DNA of 64,000 bases. It comes from Defluviitaleaceae bacterium (lineage in GTDB: Bacteria; Bacillota; Clostridia; Lachnospirales; WQUN01). Of the stretch, positions 15,507-20,107 are shown piece by piece. The notes beneath the pieces were generated by a model, which did not search any database, was not told where the DNA came from, and saw only the letters and a list, made by a program, of their open reading frames with translations. The DNA is taken from contig WQZS01000003.1 of assembly GCA_009780585.1 (NCBI GenBank), forward strand, positions 62,001 through 126,000, read 5' to 3'. Positions within the stretch are counted from its first letter, which is position 1, and every line of letters starts with the position of its first letter. Position numbers and translations under genes: made by a program.

Positions 15507-16907
15507 TTACCGCGCCAACCAAAACGGGATATACAAAACATCCTGCTCCCTGTCCAGCCGGTCTTTGGTGATGACCACCGATAACGGAATCTTGGCATTA
15601 AAAAATGTCTGTTTAAATTCAACCAACGAAGTATGCCTTACGTTCGACCTATATTTAACCTCGACGGGAAGCACTTCGATTTTTTTATCGATTACCAAAT
15701 CAACTTCAACACCTTTCTCCCGCCAATAGTGCAACGTCCAAAGATTGTCTTCGCAGGCTGCCAACGCATTTCTCGCGCAGATGCTTTCGACGATGTGCCC
15801 TGCTTGCGTGTCGGTTATCTCCGGCAACCGAAGCATCGCGTTGGCGATGCCGTTATCCAAAACATAGAGCGTTTTATTTTTTCGCAGGGTTTTTCCGGCG
15901 TTCGGGGCATAATTGCTCAGCACAACGGTTAAATACGCTTGGGAAAGATAGGTGAGGTAGGCGCTCACGGTTTCGTTGTCGCAGCCGATGGTATCGGCGA
16001 TGGTCTTCATATTAAAATCCTGCCCGTTGTTGTCCGCGACGAAGAACAGCAGCTTTTCCAGTTTATCCGCCGCTTTGATTTTATAAATACTCACGATGTC
16101 ACGGTACAAGCCTTGTCCGATGATATCGTCCACAATCCGCTTCTGCCAAAGGGTGGTATTGTCGTCCATAAAATATTCGGGATAGCCGCCGATTAACAGG
16201 AACGCTTGCAATACCGCATTTACATATGGCTTGAACCCGTCCCACCGCCATGCTTGCTGTTTTAATGCGTCGTAATAAGCGGCAGGGTCAACATACAGGC
16301 TCCCGTCGGGAATCGCCTCCAAGAAATCCGCAACCTTTTCGTCGCTCCGGTATACCGACCAAAAACGGCAAAATTGCATCAGGTCCAAAGGCATTAACCG
16401 CATCGTGTCCGTGCGGCCCATCAACGATTCCTTCGCGCCGTCAAATAAGTGGCTTGCGGAGGAACCGCTGACGACGAACTTTATATTGTAATGCGGTTCG
16501 TAATAATTCTTTAGCCATAACTGCCAGCCGGTGAACATATGAATCTCGTCAATGAACACATAGATTTTATCGTTTAATTCGGAAACCGCTTCATGAAGCA
16601 CATCGTTCAAGTACCCCTCGATAACGTCCCCGATGGATGTGTTTCCGCCAAACAACGTAGGGTCATCGCAGCTAAAAAACAGGACGCGTTTGGGCGCTGT
16701 ACCGGACTTTAATAAATGCCCGATAGCCTGTTGTATCAAGGTAGACTTGCCGACGCGGCGCGGCCCTATGATAATTTGTATCCTTCTCGCGCTCAAGCCT
16801 TTGATTACGGTATCCAACTCATTACGCGCCAATTTGTATACAGCATCCACGGATGACTTTCCCGTAACCCACCATTCATTCCGGCGGCCGAGAATTGCTG
16901 CGATCAT
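15507..16907 (-). CDS. AAA ATPase of the DUF4143 type
   Basis: A 466-aa ATP-binding protein. Walker A is GPRRVGKST (about 48-56) and Walker B is IYVFIDEIHMF (about 114-124), followed by VVSGSSASHL as sensor. The C-terminal half is the DUF4143 domain with a restriction-endonuclease-like end (VEVDLVIDKKIEVLPVEVKY, matching the D..(E/Q)xK pattern of nuclease folds). These proteins are abundant, often mobile, and of uncertain function. AGGTGA precedes the ATG, and a strong sigma-A-type promoter lies at 16943-16971. It is AT-richer than the core genes and looks acquired. Confidence 0.8.
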   Translation of the reverse strand: MIAAILGRRNEWWVTGKSSVDAVYKLARNELDTVIKGLSARRIQIIIGPRRVGKSTLIQQAIGHLLKSGTAPKRVLFFSCDDPTLFGGNTSIGDVIEGYLNDVLHEAVSELNDKIYVFIDEIHMFTGWQLWLKNYYEPHYNIKFVVSGSSASHLFDGAKESLMGRTDTMRLMPLDLMQFCRFWSVYRSDEKVADFLEAIPDGSLYVDPAAYYDALKQQAWRWDGFKPYVNAVLQAFLLIGGYPEYFMDDNTTLWQKRIVDDIIGQGLYRDIVSIYKIKAADKLEKLLFFVADNNGQDFNMKTIADTIGCDNETVSAYLTYLSQAYLTVVLSNYAPNAGKTLRKNKTLYVLDNGIANAMLRLPEITDTQAGHIVESICARNALAACEDNLWTLHYWREKGVEVDLVIDKKIEVLPVEVKYRSNVRHTSLVEFKQTFFNAKIPLSVVITKDRLDREQDVLYIPFWLAR

Positions 16908-17044: not shown

Positions 17045-17090
17045 AATAAAACGCCGCGCCTGTTTACCATACGATAACAGACGTGGCGTT
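17045..17090 (-). terminator. Terminator of the 84-aa gene
   Basis: On the minus strand AACGCCACGTCTGTT pairs with AACAGGCGCGGCGTT (two non-canonical positions) and is followed by TTTATTTATG. It lies 18 nt after the stop of the gene at 17109. Confidence 0.65.
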
Positions 17091-17108
17091 GTTACGGGAC
17101 AAGGTCAC

Positions 17109-17363
17109 TTAAACTATTTTTGGCAAGGGATTTAATAATTTATGGTTCACGTATAAAGAACATTTAATCCGGAAAATACCGCCTATTGTAGCTTTAATTT
17201 CTTCTCCGTTTATTAATTTTCCACGTAAGCGATGATCTGATGTTGAATAAATGTCACTACAGTTGTCTTGTACATCGCCATTTACAATTAATTCGCTTCC
17301 GCCTGACTGCTTGTAGGTTACTTCAATTACATTGTTTTCATGTTGATACGACCATCTTTTCAT
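17109..17363 (-). CDS. Small hypothetical protein
   Basis: An 84-aa protein (MKRWSYQHENNVIEVTYKQ, SELIVNGDVQDN, LRGKLINGEEIKATIG, KCSLYVNHKLL) with alternating beta-strand character, similar in pattern to small stand-alone beta-sandwich domains in clostridial genomes. No signal peptide or membrane helix. AAAGGAG sits 7 nt before the ATG. It lies downstream of the structured RNA on the same strand, separated from it by that RNA's terminator. AT-rich; function unknown. Confidence 0.6.
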   Translation of the reverse strand: MKRWSYQHENNVIEVTYKQSGGSELIVNGDVQDNCSDIYSTSDHRLRGKLINGEEIKATIGGIFRIKCSLYVNHKLLNPLPKIV

Positions 17364-17454: not shown

Positions 17455-17503
17455 AAAAAGGCGTGTAAGGGACGACGGCTTACACCGTCACCACCTACAC
17501 GCC
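17455..17503 (-). terminator. Terminator of the structured RNA
   Basis: On the minus strand GGCGTGTA pairs with TACACGCC, enclosing an inner hairpin GACGG..CCGTC, and is followed by TTTTTGG. It defines the 3' end of the RNA at about 17455. Confidence 0.8.
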
Positions 17504-17714
17504 AAAATCGGCTGCTACAGATTTCCACCACTACCGCACGTAGTACAAGCCACCCATACCACCTACCCCGTTATTGCGGGTAAAAGTGATAATGTGTATA
17601 CTTATCCAACTGCAACGGCAGGGTTTCCCCTGTGTTTGTAGGTGATGTGTACTCATCCCTACACTCGTCGTGGAGCGCGCTCAAACGCTTCACGGACGTT
17701 GCGGTTTTTGTTTC
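17455..17714 (-). ncRNA. Independently transcribed structured RNA, family not identified
   Basis: A 260-nt stretch between its own promoter (17721-17749) and terminator (17455-17503) with no coding frame worth annotating. In order on the minus strand it holds a GAGCGCGCTC palindrome, a stem TGTAGG-GATG..CATC-CCTACA, a CAGGG-GAAA-CCCTG hairpin with a GNRA tetraloop, GATAA..TTATC, TACCCG..CGGGGTA, CTAC..GTAG and the terminator stem. GCAACG near the 5' end can also pair with CGTTGC after the GNRA hairpin. The motif GGTGG recurs four times. I see no signature of tmRNA, RNase P, SRP or a known riboswitch; 6S RNA and the raiA motif are possible but I cannot match them. Confidence 0.65.
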
Positions 17715-17720
17715 GCGGTT

Positions 17721-17749
17721 ATAGTAGCAGGTTTATAAGGGATATACAA
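17721..17749 (-). promoter_or_regulatory. Promoter of the structured RNA
   Basis: On the minus strand TTGTAT, 17 nt, TACTAT. The expected transcript begins near 17714. Confidence 0.65.
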
Positions 17750-17815: not shown

Positions 17816-18169
17816 ATGAACATTTCAAAAGTATTCGACTACGCCCGGCATGACAATAAATTCCCCCACCATATGAGCAATTTCGGGCATATCTTCCTGG
17901 ACTCGGCGGATGCTTCCCTGGTTTGCGACGAGCCACCCTTTTATCCCGACTTGCCCAAAAGCGCGTACGTCTTCGCCGCGGGGTTCGTGCATTATTGGTG
18001 CGACGTTTTCATGCTTCCCGTGCCGGAATGGGTGAATGGAGAAAATTACAGATTCGAAGAACCCTATTTCAACCAACCCTTGATGAAGGATGAAATCATA
18101 AAATTAACCCCGACGCAATTCGCCGGACGGAATTATTTTATCCCCTCCTCGGAAGTGATTTATGTATGA
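17816..18169 (+). CDS. Hypothetical protein, first gene of a three-gene overlapping cassette
   Basis: A 117-aa protein rich in aromatic residues (MNISKVFDYARHDNKFPHHM, AAGFVHYWCDVFMLPVPEWV, LTPTQFAGRNYFIPSSEVIY). No membrane helix or known motif. AGGGG lies 6 nt before the ATG, and TATAAT at 17765-17770 may be its -10 box. Its stop overlaps the next start (ATGA at 18166), so it is translationally coupled to the nucleotidyltransferase-like gene and is a plausible partner or antitoxin for it. That role is inference from context. Confidence 0.6.
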   Translation: MNISKVFDYARHDNKFPHHMSNFGHIFLDSADASLVCDEPPFYPDLPKSAYVFAAGFVHYWCDVFMLPVPEWVNGENYRFEEPYFNQPLMKDEIIKLTPTQFAGRNYFIPSSEVIYV

Positions 18170-18807
18170 TGTATAAAAAAGTATCGGATTTGTTCTTGAT
18201 GGACAGGAAAAAGATGCTCTTTTATTTTAATAAGGCCGACGCCGTGCTGAAGGAAATGGGCAAATCGCTGTCCATTTGGGTTAGCGGCGGGGCGAACATG
18301 TGCTTCTATATCCGTTCGCGCGAGTCCACCCATGACATTGACACCTACCCCGACGACGAAGCCGTGCTGCGTGAACTGTCCCGGAATATGCAAAAATTAT
18401 TCCCATTACCCAACGCGTGGCTTAACGCTTCGGGGCGAATCTTCATAACGGAACGGATGCGCGAAGAATCCGAGCAGGGGCTCAACTTTAATCATTTGAA
18501 GGTGAATTTTCTAAGGGCGGAAGCCATGCTCGTCCTTAAAGTATTGGCGGGGAGGACGGGGGAGGAATTCCACGACGTTGAAGATACCGTCGCGTTGCTA
18601 AAGCATTTGAATATCAAATCCTTAAACGCCGTTGACGCGCTGATAATGGAATATAAAGAAGATTGGAACACGCCCCTGGTCATGCATTTCGCGAATGAAG
18701 CGTTAAAAAAATGTTGGGGCGACGATGTCGAACCGATAGACAAAGAAACCGCTTCCGAATCTTTGAAAAGGTACCTTGCTATAAAACCACCCGAGGCTCC
18801 GCTATGA
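18166..18807 (+). CDS. Nucleotidyltransferase-like protein (DUF6036 type)
   Basis: A 213-aa protein with a Gly-Gly turn and a downstream D-x-D (IWVSGGANMCFY then STHDIDTYP, residues about 38-62), the pattern of DUF6036 and related AbiEii-like nucleotidyltransferases. The middle part LRAEAMLVLKVLAGRTGEEF provides the lysine-bearing helix typical of these folds. Such proteins occur as toxin-like components with small partners. It overlaps its neighbours by 4 nt on both sides (ATGA at 18166 and 18804), so the three genes form one tight translational unit. Substrate unknown. Confidence 0.65.
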   Translation: MMYKKVSDLFLMDRKKMLFYFNKADAVLKEMGKSLSIWVSGGANMCFYIRSRESTHDIDTYPDDEAVLRELSRNMQKLFPLPNAWLNASGRIFITERMREESEQGLNFNHLKVNFLRAEAMLVLKVLAGRTGEEFHDVEDTVALLKHLNIKSLNAVDALIMEYKEDWNTPLVMHFANEALKKCWGDDVEPIDKETASESLKRYLAIKPPEAPL

Positions 18808-19383: not shown

Positions 19384-19656
19384 ATGGTTAAAAGATTGAA
19401 TGAAACGGTTGTGCGTACAGAAAAGGAAATCGACCACCTTTACCCGGGTCAATGGGTATTATTGGATGAGCGCGATTATCCGCACCAGGGTCGCGGTCGT
19501 ATTGTCGCCATTGGTGAAAATACGGATTCCGACCTTGATGATTTGCTCAATATTAAACTTACCGAATTTAAAGGGAAGGGACATATGATGTGCGGTTGTC
19601 CGAACAGGGGAGAAATGTCAAGTGGTATACAATTTGAATATTCACACAAACGCTAA
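19384..19656 (+). CDS. Small hypothetical protein paired with a retropepsin-like gene
   Basis: A 90-aa hydrophilic protein (IDHLYPGQWVLLDERDYPHQ, GRIVAIGENTDSDLDDLLNI). GGGAGG lies 5 nt before the ATG. It overlaps the retropepsin-like gene by 35 nt. The spacing suggests a coupled pair; family and function are unknown. Confidence 0.55.
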   Translation: MVKRLNETVVRTEKEIDHLYPGQWVLLDERDYPHQGRGRIVAIGENTDSDLDDLLNIKLTEFKGKGHMMCGCPNRGEMSSGIQFEYSHKR

Positions 19657-20107
19657 GCATCGGATTTATGTAACGGCATCGATAAAATATATCCATCCCG
19701 CCAATGAATTAAATGAAGTACGCGTCATGGTGGATACGGGATGTTATAACACAATGGTCCCTCTCTGGATGGCAAAACGGACAGGGTACAACTTAGGAAT
19801 CAATCGGAGCGTTGTAATCGGCGGAACAACGGGTACGGGGCAACTATACGCGTTAAACATGCTTCATTTCGGCGGGTGTGTAATAGAACGTGCCGTTGTG
19901 CTTGCTTACCCTTTCCCCGCCGCAAACGAATTATATGACACCATCTTATTAGGGACAAATATCCTCAACAATTGGCGGTACACCATTGACCGTGAAACAG
20001 GCACCTTTACTTTTACCGAAAATCTCCCTCACTTTCTTCCCAATAAAATAAATCCATACCAAAATTATTTCAACGAAGCCTACGAATACGTATCTGTTCA
20101 AATCTAA
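19622..20107 (+). CDS. Retropepsin-like aspartic protease domain protein
   Basis: A 161-aa protein with a single aspartic protease motif VMVDTGCYNTMVP (D-T-G near residue 37) and the following ILLGTNIL segment (about 103-110), as in clan AA retropepsin-like proteins that act as homodimers. No signal peptide is visible, so it is probably cytosolic. The start is GTG with AGGGGAG about 10 nt upstream, inside the preceding gene. It lies in the AT-richer segment bounded by 17-bp direct repeats. Confidence 0.65.
   Translation: MVYNLNIHTNAKHRIYVTASIKYIHPANELNEVRVMVDTGCYNTMVPLWMAKRTGYNLGINRSVVIGGTTGTGQLYALNMLHFGGCVIERAVVLAYPFPAANELYDTILLGTNILNNWRYTIDRETGTFTFTENLPHFLPNKINPYQNYFNEAYEYVSVQI

Follow-up and report, generated by a model that had tools for sequence, protein, structure and literature searches.

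The window, the whole stretch of 64,000 nucleotides that was analysed, comes from a Defluviitaleaceae genome (G000, C3:62001-126000) and contains at 17455-17714 a 260-nt stretch that is noncoding, as the original prediction had stated, and that lies, as it had also stated, between an ATPase gene and a nucleotidyltransferase gene. That prediction further described one structured RNA of 260 nt with its own promoter and terminator and no known family, and these attributes hold, but a single RNA made from one strand does not. We infer from the sequence that the stretch encodes two overlapping transcripts of opposite direction, a structured antisense RNA of ~105 nt on the plus strand (RNA-A) and a leader of ~255 nt on the minus strand (RNA-B). 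The features, in order of position, are as follows.

15507-16907, minus strand: AAA_14/DUF4143 ATPase, flanking the element
17052-17095, minus strand: hairpin followed by a T-rich run, just 3' of the 84-aa open reading frame (ORF), read from the sequence; likely the end of the RNA-B unit
17109-17363, minus strand: downstream ORF of 84 aa, ATG at 17363, AAGGAG at 17375-17370; predicted regulated gene
17455-17713, minus strand: putative RNA-B leader when terminated, ~255 nt, placed from the promoter position and hp2
17455-17503, minus strand: hp2, intrinsic terminator found by folding, hairpin 17503-17460 followed by TTTTT at 17459-17455
~17499-17489, minus strand: 5' arm of hp2, TGTAGGTGGTG, antiterminator strand b, pairing with the anti-P3 3' arm
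17574-17602, plus strand: RNA-A promoter, TTGCGG at 17574-17579, 17-nt spacer, TATACT at 17597-17602
about 17606-17710, plus strand: RNA-A, four-helix structured antisense RNA with a terminal U-run (T 17705-17709), from covariance model and covariation
17611-17617 with 17697-17703, plus strand: helix P1, TGCAACG with CGTTGCG, which closes RNA-A and serves as the terminator stem preceding the T-run
17618-17633, plus strand: P2 hairpin
17637-17663, plus strand: P3 hairpin, near-invariant arms TGTAGGTGAT/ATCCCTACA, T17643 bulged, hypervariable loop at ~17648-17654
17637-17647, minus strand: anti-P3 3' arm in RNA-B, CATCACCTACA, antiterminator strand a, forming a duplex with the hp2 5' arm
17668-17695, plus strand: P4 hairpin
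17721-17749, minus strand: RNA-B promoter position, TTGTAT at 17749-17744, 17 nt, TACTAT at 17726-17721
18166-18807, plus strand: DUF6036-like nucleotidyltransferase (below the Pfam cut-off), flanking the element on the other side

Elsewhere in the window, the ORF at 19622-20107 (plus strand) encodes a retropepsin domain of the gag-asp protease-like type (PF13975) in what is a bacterial genome.

The stretch folds more stably than its shuffles on both strands (z of -4.4 on the minus and -4.5 on the plus strand), bearing out a folded state, and for this reason one sequence alone cannot tell which strand is relevant. The original prediction had folded the minus strand; the conserved fold is that of the plus strand. 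In the consensus structure of 38 copies, the plus strand has 1054 Watson-Crick, 123 G-U and only 5 A-C cells, RNAalifold gives -37.9 kcal/mol for plus against -27.1 for minus, and 206 G-U stand against 19 A-C cells across 89 copies. Since a G-U pair on one strand is an A-C mismatch on the other, the P1-P4 fold is selected on the plus strand. Covariation with homologs, proposed as a check on the prediction, supports the fold: in a 65-sequence Clostridia alignment fitted to the covariance model, compensatory changes occur at 31 of the 33 RNA-A pairs, 95.3% of cells are paired and none of 500 shuffles is equal, and a MAFFT alignment agrees, both partners having changed in 18 of 33 pairs. All seven pairs of P1 covary (C-G/U-G/U-A and A-U/G-C), as do 6/6 pairs of P2 (alignments A2 and A4) and 10/10 of P4. 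P1 is the long-range GCAACG/CGTTGC pairing already recognized in the prediction. Its CAGGG/CCCTG hairpin likewise corresponds to P2, but the GNRA loop is not a conserved minus-strand feature; the P2 loop is of GNRA type in many other copies.

RNA-A scores 92.4 bits with covariance model R1 and 88.7 bits with R2, a model built with six additional genomes of the class matched by R1. A cmscan of the window region against Rfam 15, the test called for by the original prediction, gives no match to RNA-A at the gathering score or even at E<=10, and ten distant loci give none at E<=1, in keeping with the claim of no known family. The raiA motif, 6S and other Rfam families are likewise structured intergenic RNAs of Firmicutes, and none matches RNA-A in cmscan. 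The plus-strand promoter was overlooked in the original prediction. It scores 8/12 in the window, reaches at least 9/12 in 61 of 89 family copies (4.4% of shuffled regions) and in all 27 distant copies (8.9% of shuffled regions), and lies at a near-fixed distance from the RNA among copies. A mechanical terminator scan missed both the RNA-A terminator and hp2, which were located by folding.

The minus strand has a constant layout in nearly all copies. In the window, the promoter position is followed by the complements of RNA-A and of its promoter, a spacer, hp2 with its T-run, and then the AAGGAG and ATG of the 84-aa ORF. The sigma-A-like minus-strand promoter of the original prediction is conserved in position, but its score here is only 7/12; at least 9/12 is reached by 22 of 89 family copies against 9.8% of shuffles, which is weak on average, and by 21 of 26 distant copies, which is clear. 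The predicted rho-independent terminator exists and is hp2. Most of the 89 copies have a terminator of the hp2 type with a matching 5' arm, and its minus strand shows 122 G-U against 13 A-C cells. The G-U bias of RNA-A on the plus strand and that of hp2 on the minus strand together show that both strands carry selected RNA structures. Four GGTGG repeats are present as described, but only one lies in the hp2 5' arm, where it is complementary to anti-P3, and the other three lie in spacer that is not conserved. The 84-aa ORF has no Pfam match and one weak homolog within the family.

The two RNAs are linked by a shared sequence. The hp2 5' arm has the sequence of the RNA-A P3 5' arm, so that its complement, the anti-P3 3' arm, is present in RNA-B. 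The resulting antiterminator duplex is predicted at -17.6 kcal/mol in the window copy and at a mean of -19.3 kcal/mol over 69 copies, compared with -9.1 for shuffled arms. Cognate arms beat permuted partners, with none of 2000 permutations as good, and none of 5000 within divergent subfamilies (kinship of copies is ignored in both). Examples read from the sequence are ATCATCCAC with GTGGGTGAT in L109 and CCTACGCGT with ACGTGTAGG in L150. At 27 distant loci from other Clostridia families, which were located with RNA-A models alone, the energy is -12.8 kcal/mol for cognate arms, -10.9 for permuted partners (0/5000, kinship again ignored), -8.0 for shuffled arms and -4.0 for other leader windows; hp2 is at the automated pick in 26 of the 27, the pick at L146 being wrong. 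A protein-binding motif common to P3 and hp2 might also account for their similarity.

Predicted folding of the nascent leader agrees with this pairing. When the leader is folded up to the hp2 5' arm, the antiterminator has a mean probability of 0.90 and exceeds 0.5 in 62 of 69 copies, not being favoured in the other 7, whereas shuffled arms give a mean of 0.18 and exceed 0.5 in 34 of 207. In the window copy, the antiterminator (0.81) and the anti-P3 hairpin (0.85) are about equal in the truncated leader. Once the part covered by RNA-A is blocked, the hp2 terminator has a predicted probability of 1.0. At equilibrium the terminator is favoured in the full leader of nearly every copy (0.96), and antitermination would therefore need a kinetic effect. 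The structures of both RNAs, the strand of each, and the complementarity and co-variation of the two arms are what sequence analysis brings out.

Mapping the element across genomes, we found that it is not a lone accessory oddity but one of 9 copies in G000, in a family spread over Clostridia. Copies turned up in 14 of 61 genomes searched at the DNA level, several per genome, and a pattern search across 84,980 species genomes yielded 31 loci, all in Defluviitaleaceae metagenome-assembled genomes (MAGs), relatives that presumably come from termite guts, judging from isolate codes. With R1, RNA-A is present in 24 of the 38 family genomes, with a maximum of 51 copies (G014). R1 also matches six other genomes in the class and none in other families of the order. 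R2 matches 16 of 391 class genomes including G000, hence 15 further Clostridia genomes, and no other genome in a phylum-wide draw of 299. The lack of matches elsewhere in the order and among other genomes of the phylum draw indicates a patchy spread. DNA searches of phage and plasmid collections with the window copy and distant copies as queries gave no match, and the main-family pattern is absent from viral contigs; the distant-type pattern matches five viral contigs. Copy numbers are very high in G014 (51 matches), G029 and G011, with many copies near contig ends, which suggests recent spread or repeats that break the assembly. At the ends of two G000 contigs (C24 and C40), RNA-A copies are fused within P4 to the same 65-nt foreign sequence (L096:3086-3164 and L097:3015-3094), either by insertion into P4 or by an assembly break at a repeat.

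Within a genome, paralogs resemble one another over about 310 bp, beginning at the RNA-B -35 region and ending with hp2; their flanks are usually unlike, apart from one G029 subfamily in which likeness extends to about +700. Co-directional ORFs lie downstream in 58 of 75 copies (77%) and upstream in 44 of 79; the downstream neighbour is not co-directional in 17 of 75 by ORF calling. Such sharp homology borders, up to 51 copies per genome and the many copies near contig ends would also fit a dispersed MITE-like repeat that holds promoters and terminators by chance and has no regulatory role. This is exceedingly unlikely, given the compensatory changes throughout, the co-directional placement and the conservation across many Clostridia families; moreover, terminal inverted repeats are not obvious on reading.

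The genes downstream of the cassette are mixed. In the family they encode flagellin, Asp23, F420-ligase-like, GtrII, RCC1-repeat and copper-amine-oxidase-N proteins, and many of the products are predicted to be exported by a simple hydrophobicity rule. In several subfamilies (L117, L118, L122, L123, L112, L029; L099, L105, L109), the cassette is followed first by a gene for a small AbrB/MazE-fold or HTH_3 regulator, an arrangement that may be older. Distant Clostridia have DUF6809-like, SymE toxin, serine recombinase, Spo0E-like and phage ssDNA-binding genes in this position. SymE is found at some distant loci only and is absent from the window; SymE_toxin (PF08845) genes stand behind the element in L134, L136, L154 and L178. 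In five entries from other Clostridia and viral contigs (L142, L149, L154, L176, L180), DUF6809-like, SymE and/or tandem serine recombinase genes form one apparent operon behind RNA-A, possibly a regulated integration module. L178:662-3486 has genes for a SymE-like and a phage Enc34-type ssDNA-binding protein downstream, resembling a phage early operon.

The P3 loop is hypervariable. Stem columns of P3 mostly have an entropy of 0-0.5 bits and loop columns ~1.9 of 2 bits, and 79 of 83 parsed loops are distinct, a few being mis-framed by the loose pattern. Among 30 within-genome pairs that share at least 85% identity elsewhere, the P3 loops have a mean identity of 0.41, against 0.84 for the P2 and 0.64 for the P4 loops; L119 and L120 are 0.99 identical outside the P3 loop and 0.38 within it. 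This variation suggests selection for private, locus-specific recognition by loop-loop (kissing) contacts, but it may also arise through targeted mutation or through gene conversion between copies. Loop diversity, like the cassette borders and the orientation bias, is read directly from the sequences compared.

These patterns bear on two other ways of reading the element. RNA-B could be a ligand- or protein-sensing leader, a riboswitch- or T-box-like attenuator with the plus-strand signals as by-products, as a conditional terminator before genes and nearly invariant anti-P3 arms would allow. However, the conserved multi-helix fold accommodates G-U when read as plus strand but not as minus strand, 27/27 distant copies keep the plus-strand promoter, a ligand pocket predicts no randomized loop among near-identical paralogs and Rfam holds no match, which makes a sensing leader very improbable. 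Alternatively, the many structured copies per genome, each with its own promoter and terminator, might form a family of trans-acting small RNAs (Hfq-/ProQ-type or 6S-like) that act on other mRNA targets and overlap the leader incidentally. We regard this as more doubtful still: nearly every copy retains hp2 and, with it, the ability to pair with the RNA-A complement, the cassette borders take in the leader promoter and hp2, and the would-be seed loop differs in nearly every copy.

Countertranscript attenuators are textbook plasmid copy-control devices, and pT181 is controlled by antiterminator competition. The element is most likely a promoter-plus-attenuator cassette under antisense-RNA control that follows the pT181/pIP501 logic. 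By sequence, it has an antisense RNA opposite a 5' leader with its own promoter and terminator, an intrinsic terminator in the leader just 5' of a co-directional ORF, and an antisense target region that pairs with the terminator 5' arm in duplex energies, permutations and nascent folding. RNA-B would be transcribed on the minus strand as the leader of the downstream gene, and during its synthesis the anti-P3 3' arm (CAUCACCUAC) would pair with the hp2 5' arm (GUAGGUGGUG), so that the terminator is blocked and polymerase reads into the gene. RNA-A, transcribed opposite that leader, would recognize nascent RNA-B, probably first by kissing of the variable P3 loop with its complement, and would sequester anti-P3, freeing the hp2 5' arm for termination before the gene. 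By analogy with the plasmid systems, premature termination would most likely be caused by RNA-A. Given that P3 loops vary from copy to copy, an RNA-A would be expected to act chiefly on the leader with which it is encoded. We infer that both RNAs are produced, that RNA-A attenuates transcription and that the loop sets its specificity.

Instead of attenuation, regulation between the two strands could come from promoter interference during convergent transcription, or from RNase III cutting the duplex. Face-to-face promoters are inherent in the layout, and convergent transcription also matters in pIP501 (PMC4981023), but this alternative is quite improbable, leaving hp2, its co-variation with anti-P3 and the conserved RNA-A fold unexplained. 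The antisense attenuator, in turn, resembles pIP501 RNAIII/RNAII and pT181 in its dimensions, a leader of ~260-320 nt and a structured antisense RNA of ~100-136 nt (PMC5703833, PMC4981023); leaders of the pIP501 type are ~320 nt long, with an antisense promoter midway and a terminator just before the start codon (PMC5703833). Unlike these plasmid loci, the cassette is chromosomal and in mobile islands, is present in many copies per genome with private loops, and precedes unrelated genes, with no Rep among those examined. Covariance models show no relation of RNA-A to Rfam plasmid antisense families. We rejected a pIP501/Inc18 copy-control locus as an identity for the element: the downstream genes examined include no Rep, and HTH_3 is found downstream in some subfamilies rather than upstream as copR.

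The loci with SymE_toxin genes are also reminiscent of the SymE/SymR type I toxin-antitoxin system of Escherichia coli, in which the antisense RNA SymR opposes the 5' region of the symE mRNA (PMC1891008). In contrast to SymR, which represses symE translation, the cassette RNA sits upstream of the gene, beside a terminator, and is found in front of many genes other than SymE as well. In the literature we found only the plasmid systems and SymER as equivalents; most subscription papers were outside our reach, so an earlier description is possible. The design is familiar from plasmids, and a chromosomal family of it before dozens of unrelated genes is apparently new.

Taken as a whole, we consider it fairly probable that the element represents a Clostridia-wide class of chromosomal antisense attenuators, previously uncatalogued, whose cassettes likely have their root in mobile elements (DUF6809/SymE/serine-recombinase operons), have been copied in termite-gut lineages before dozens of unrelated genes and are insulated from one another by fast-diversifying P3 loops, so that they would constitute natural orthogonal antisense switches. 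With its fixed stem and hypervariable loop, P3 provides a direct natural experiment on the evolution of orthogonal antisense pairs, and its variants a parts set for synthetic biology. For SymE/recombinase islands in Firmicutes, the cassette also supplies an RNA regulator that can be tested. If this reading is true, antisense attenuation would be a general way of running genes in some Clostridia, and the cassette a portable control unit for genes of flagellin, surface proteins, the cell envelope, regulators and mobile elements.
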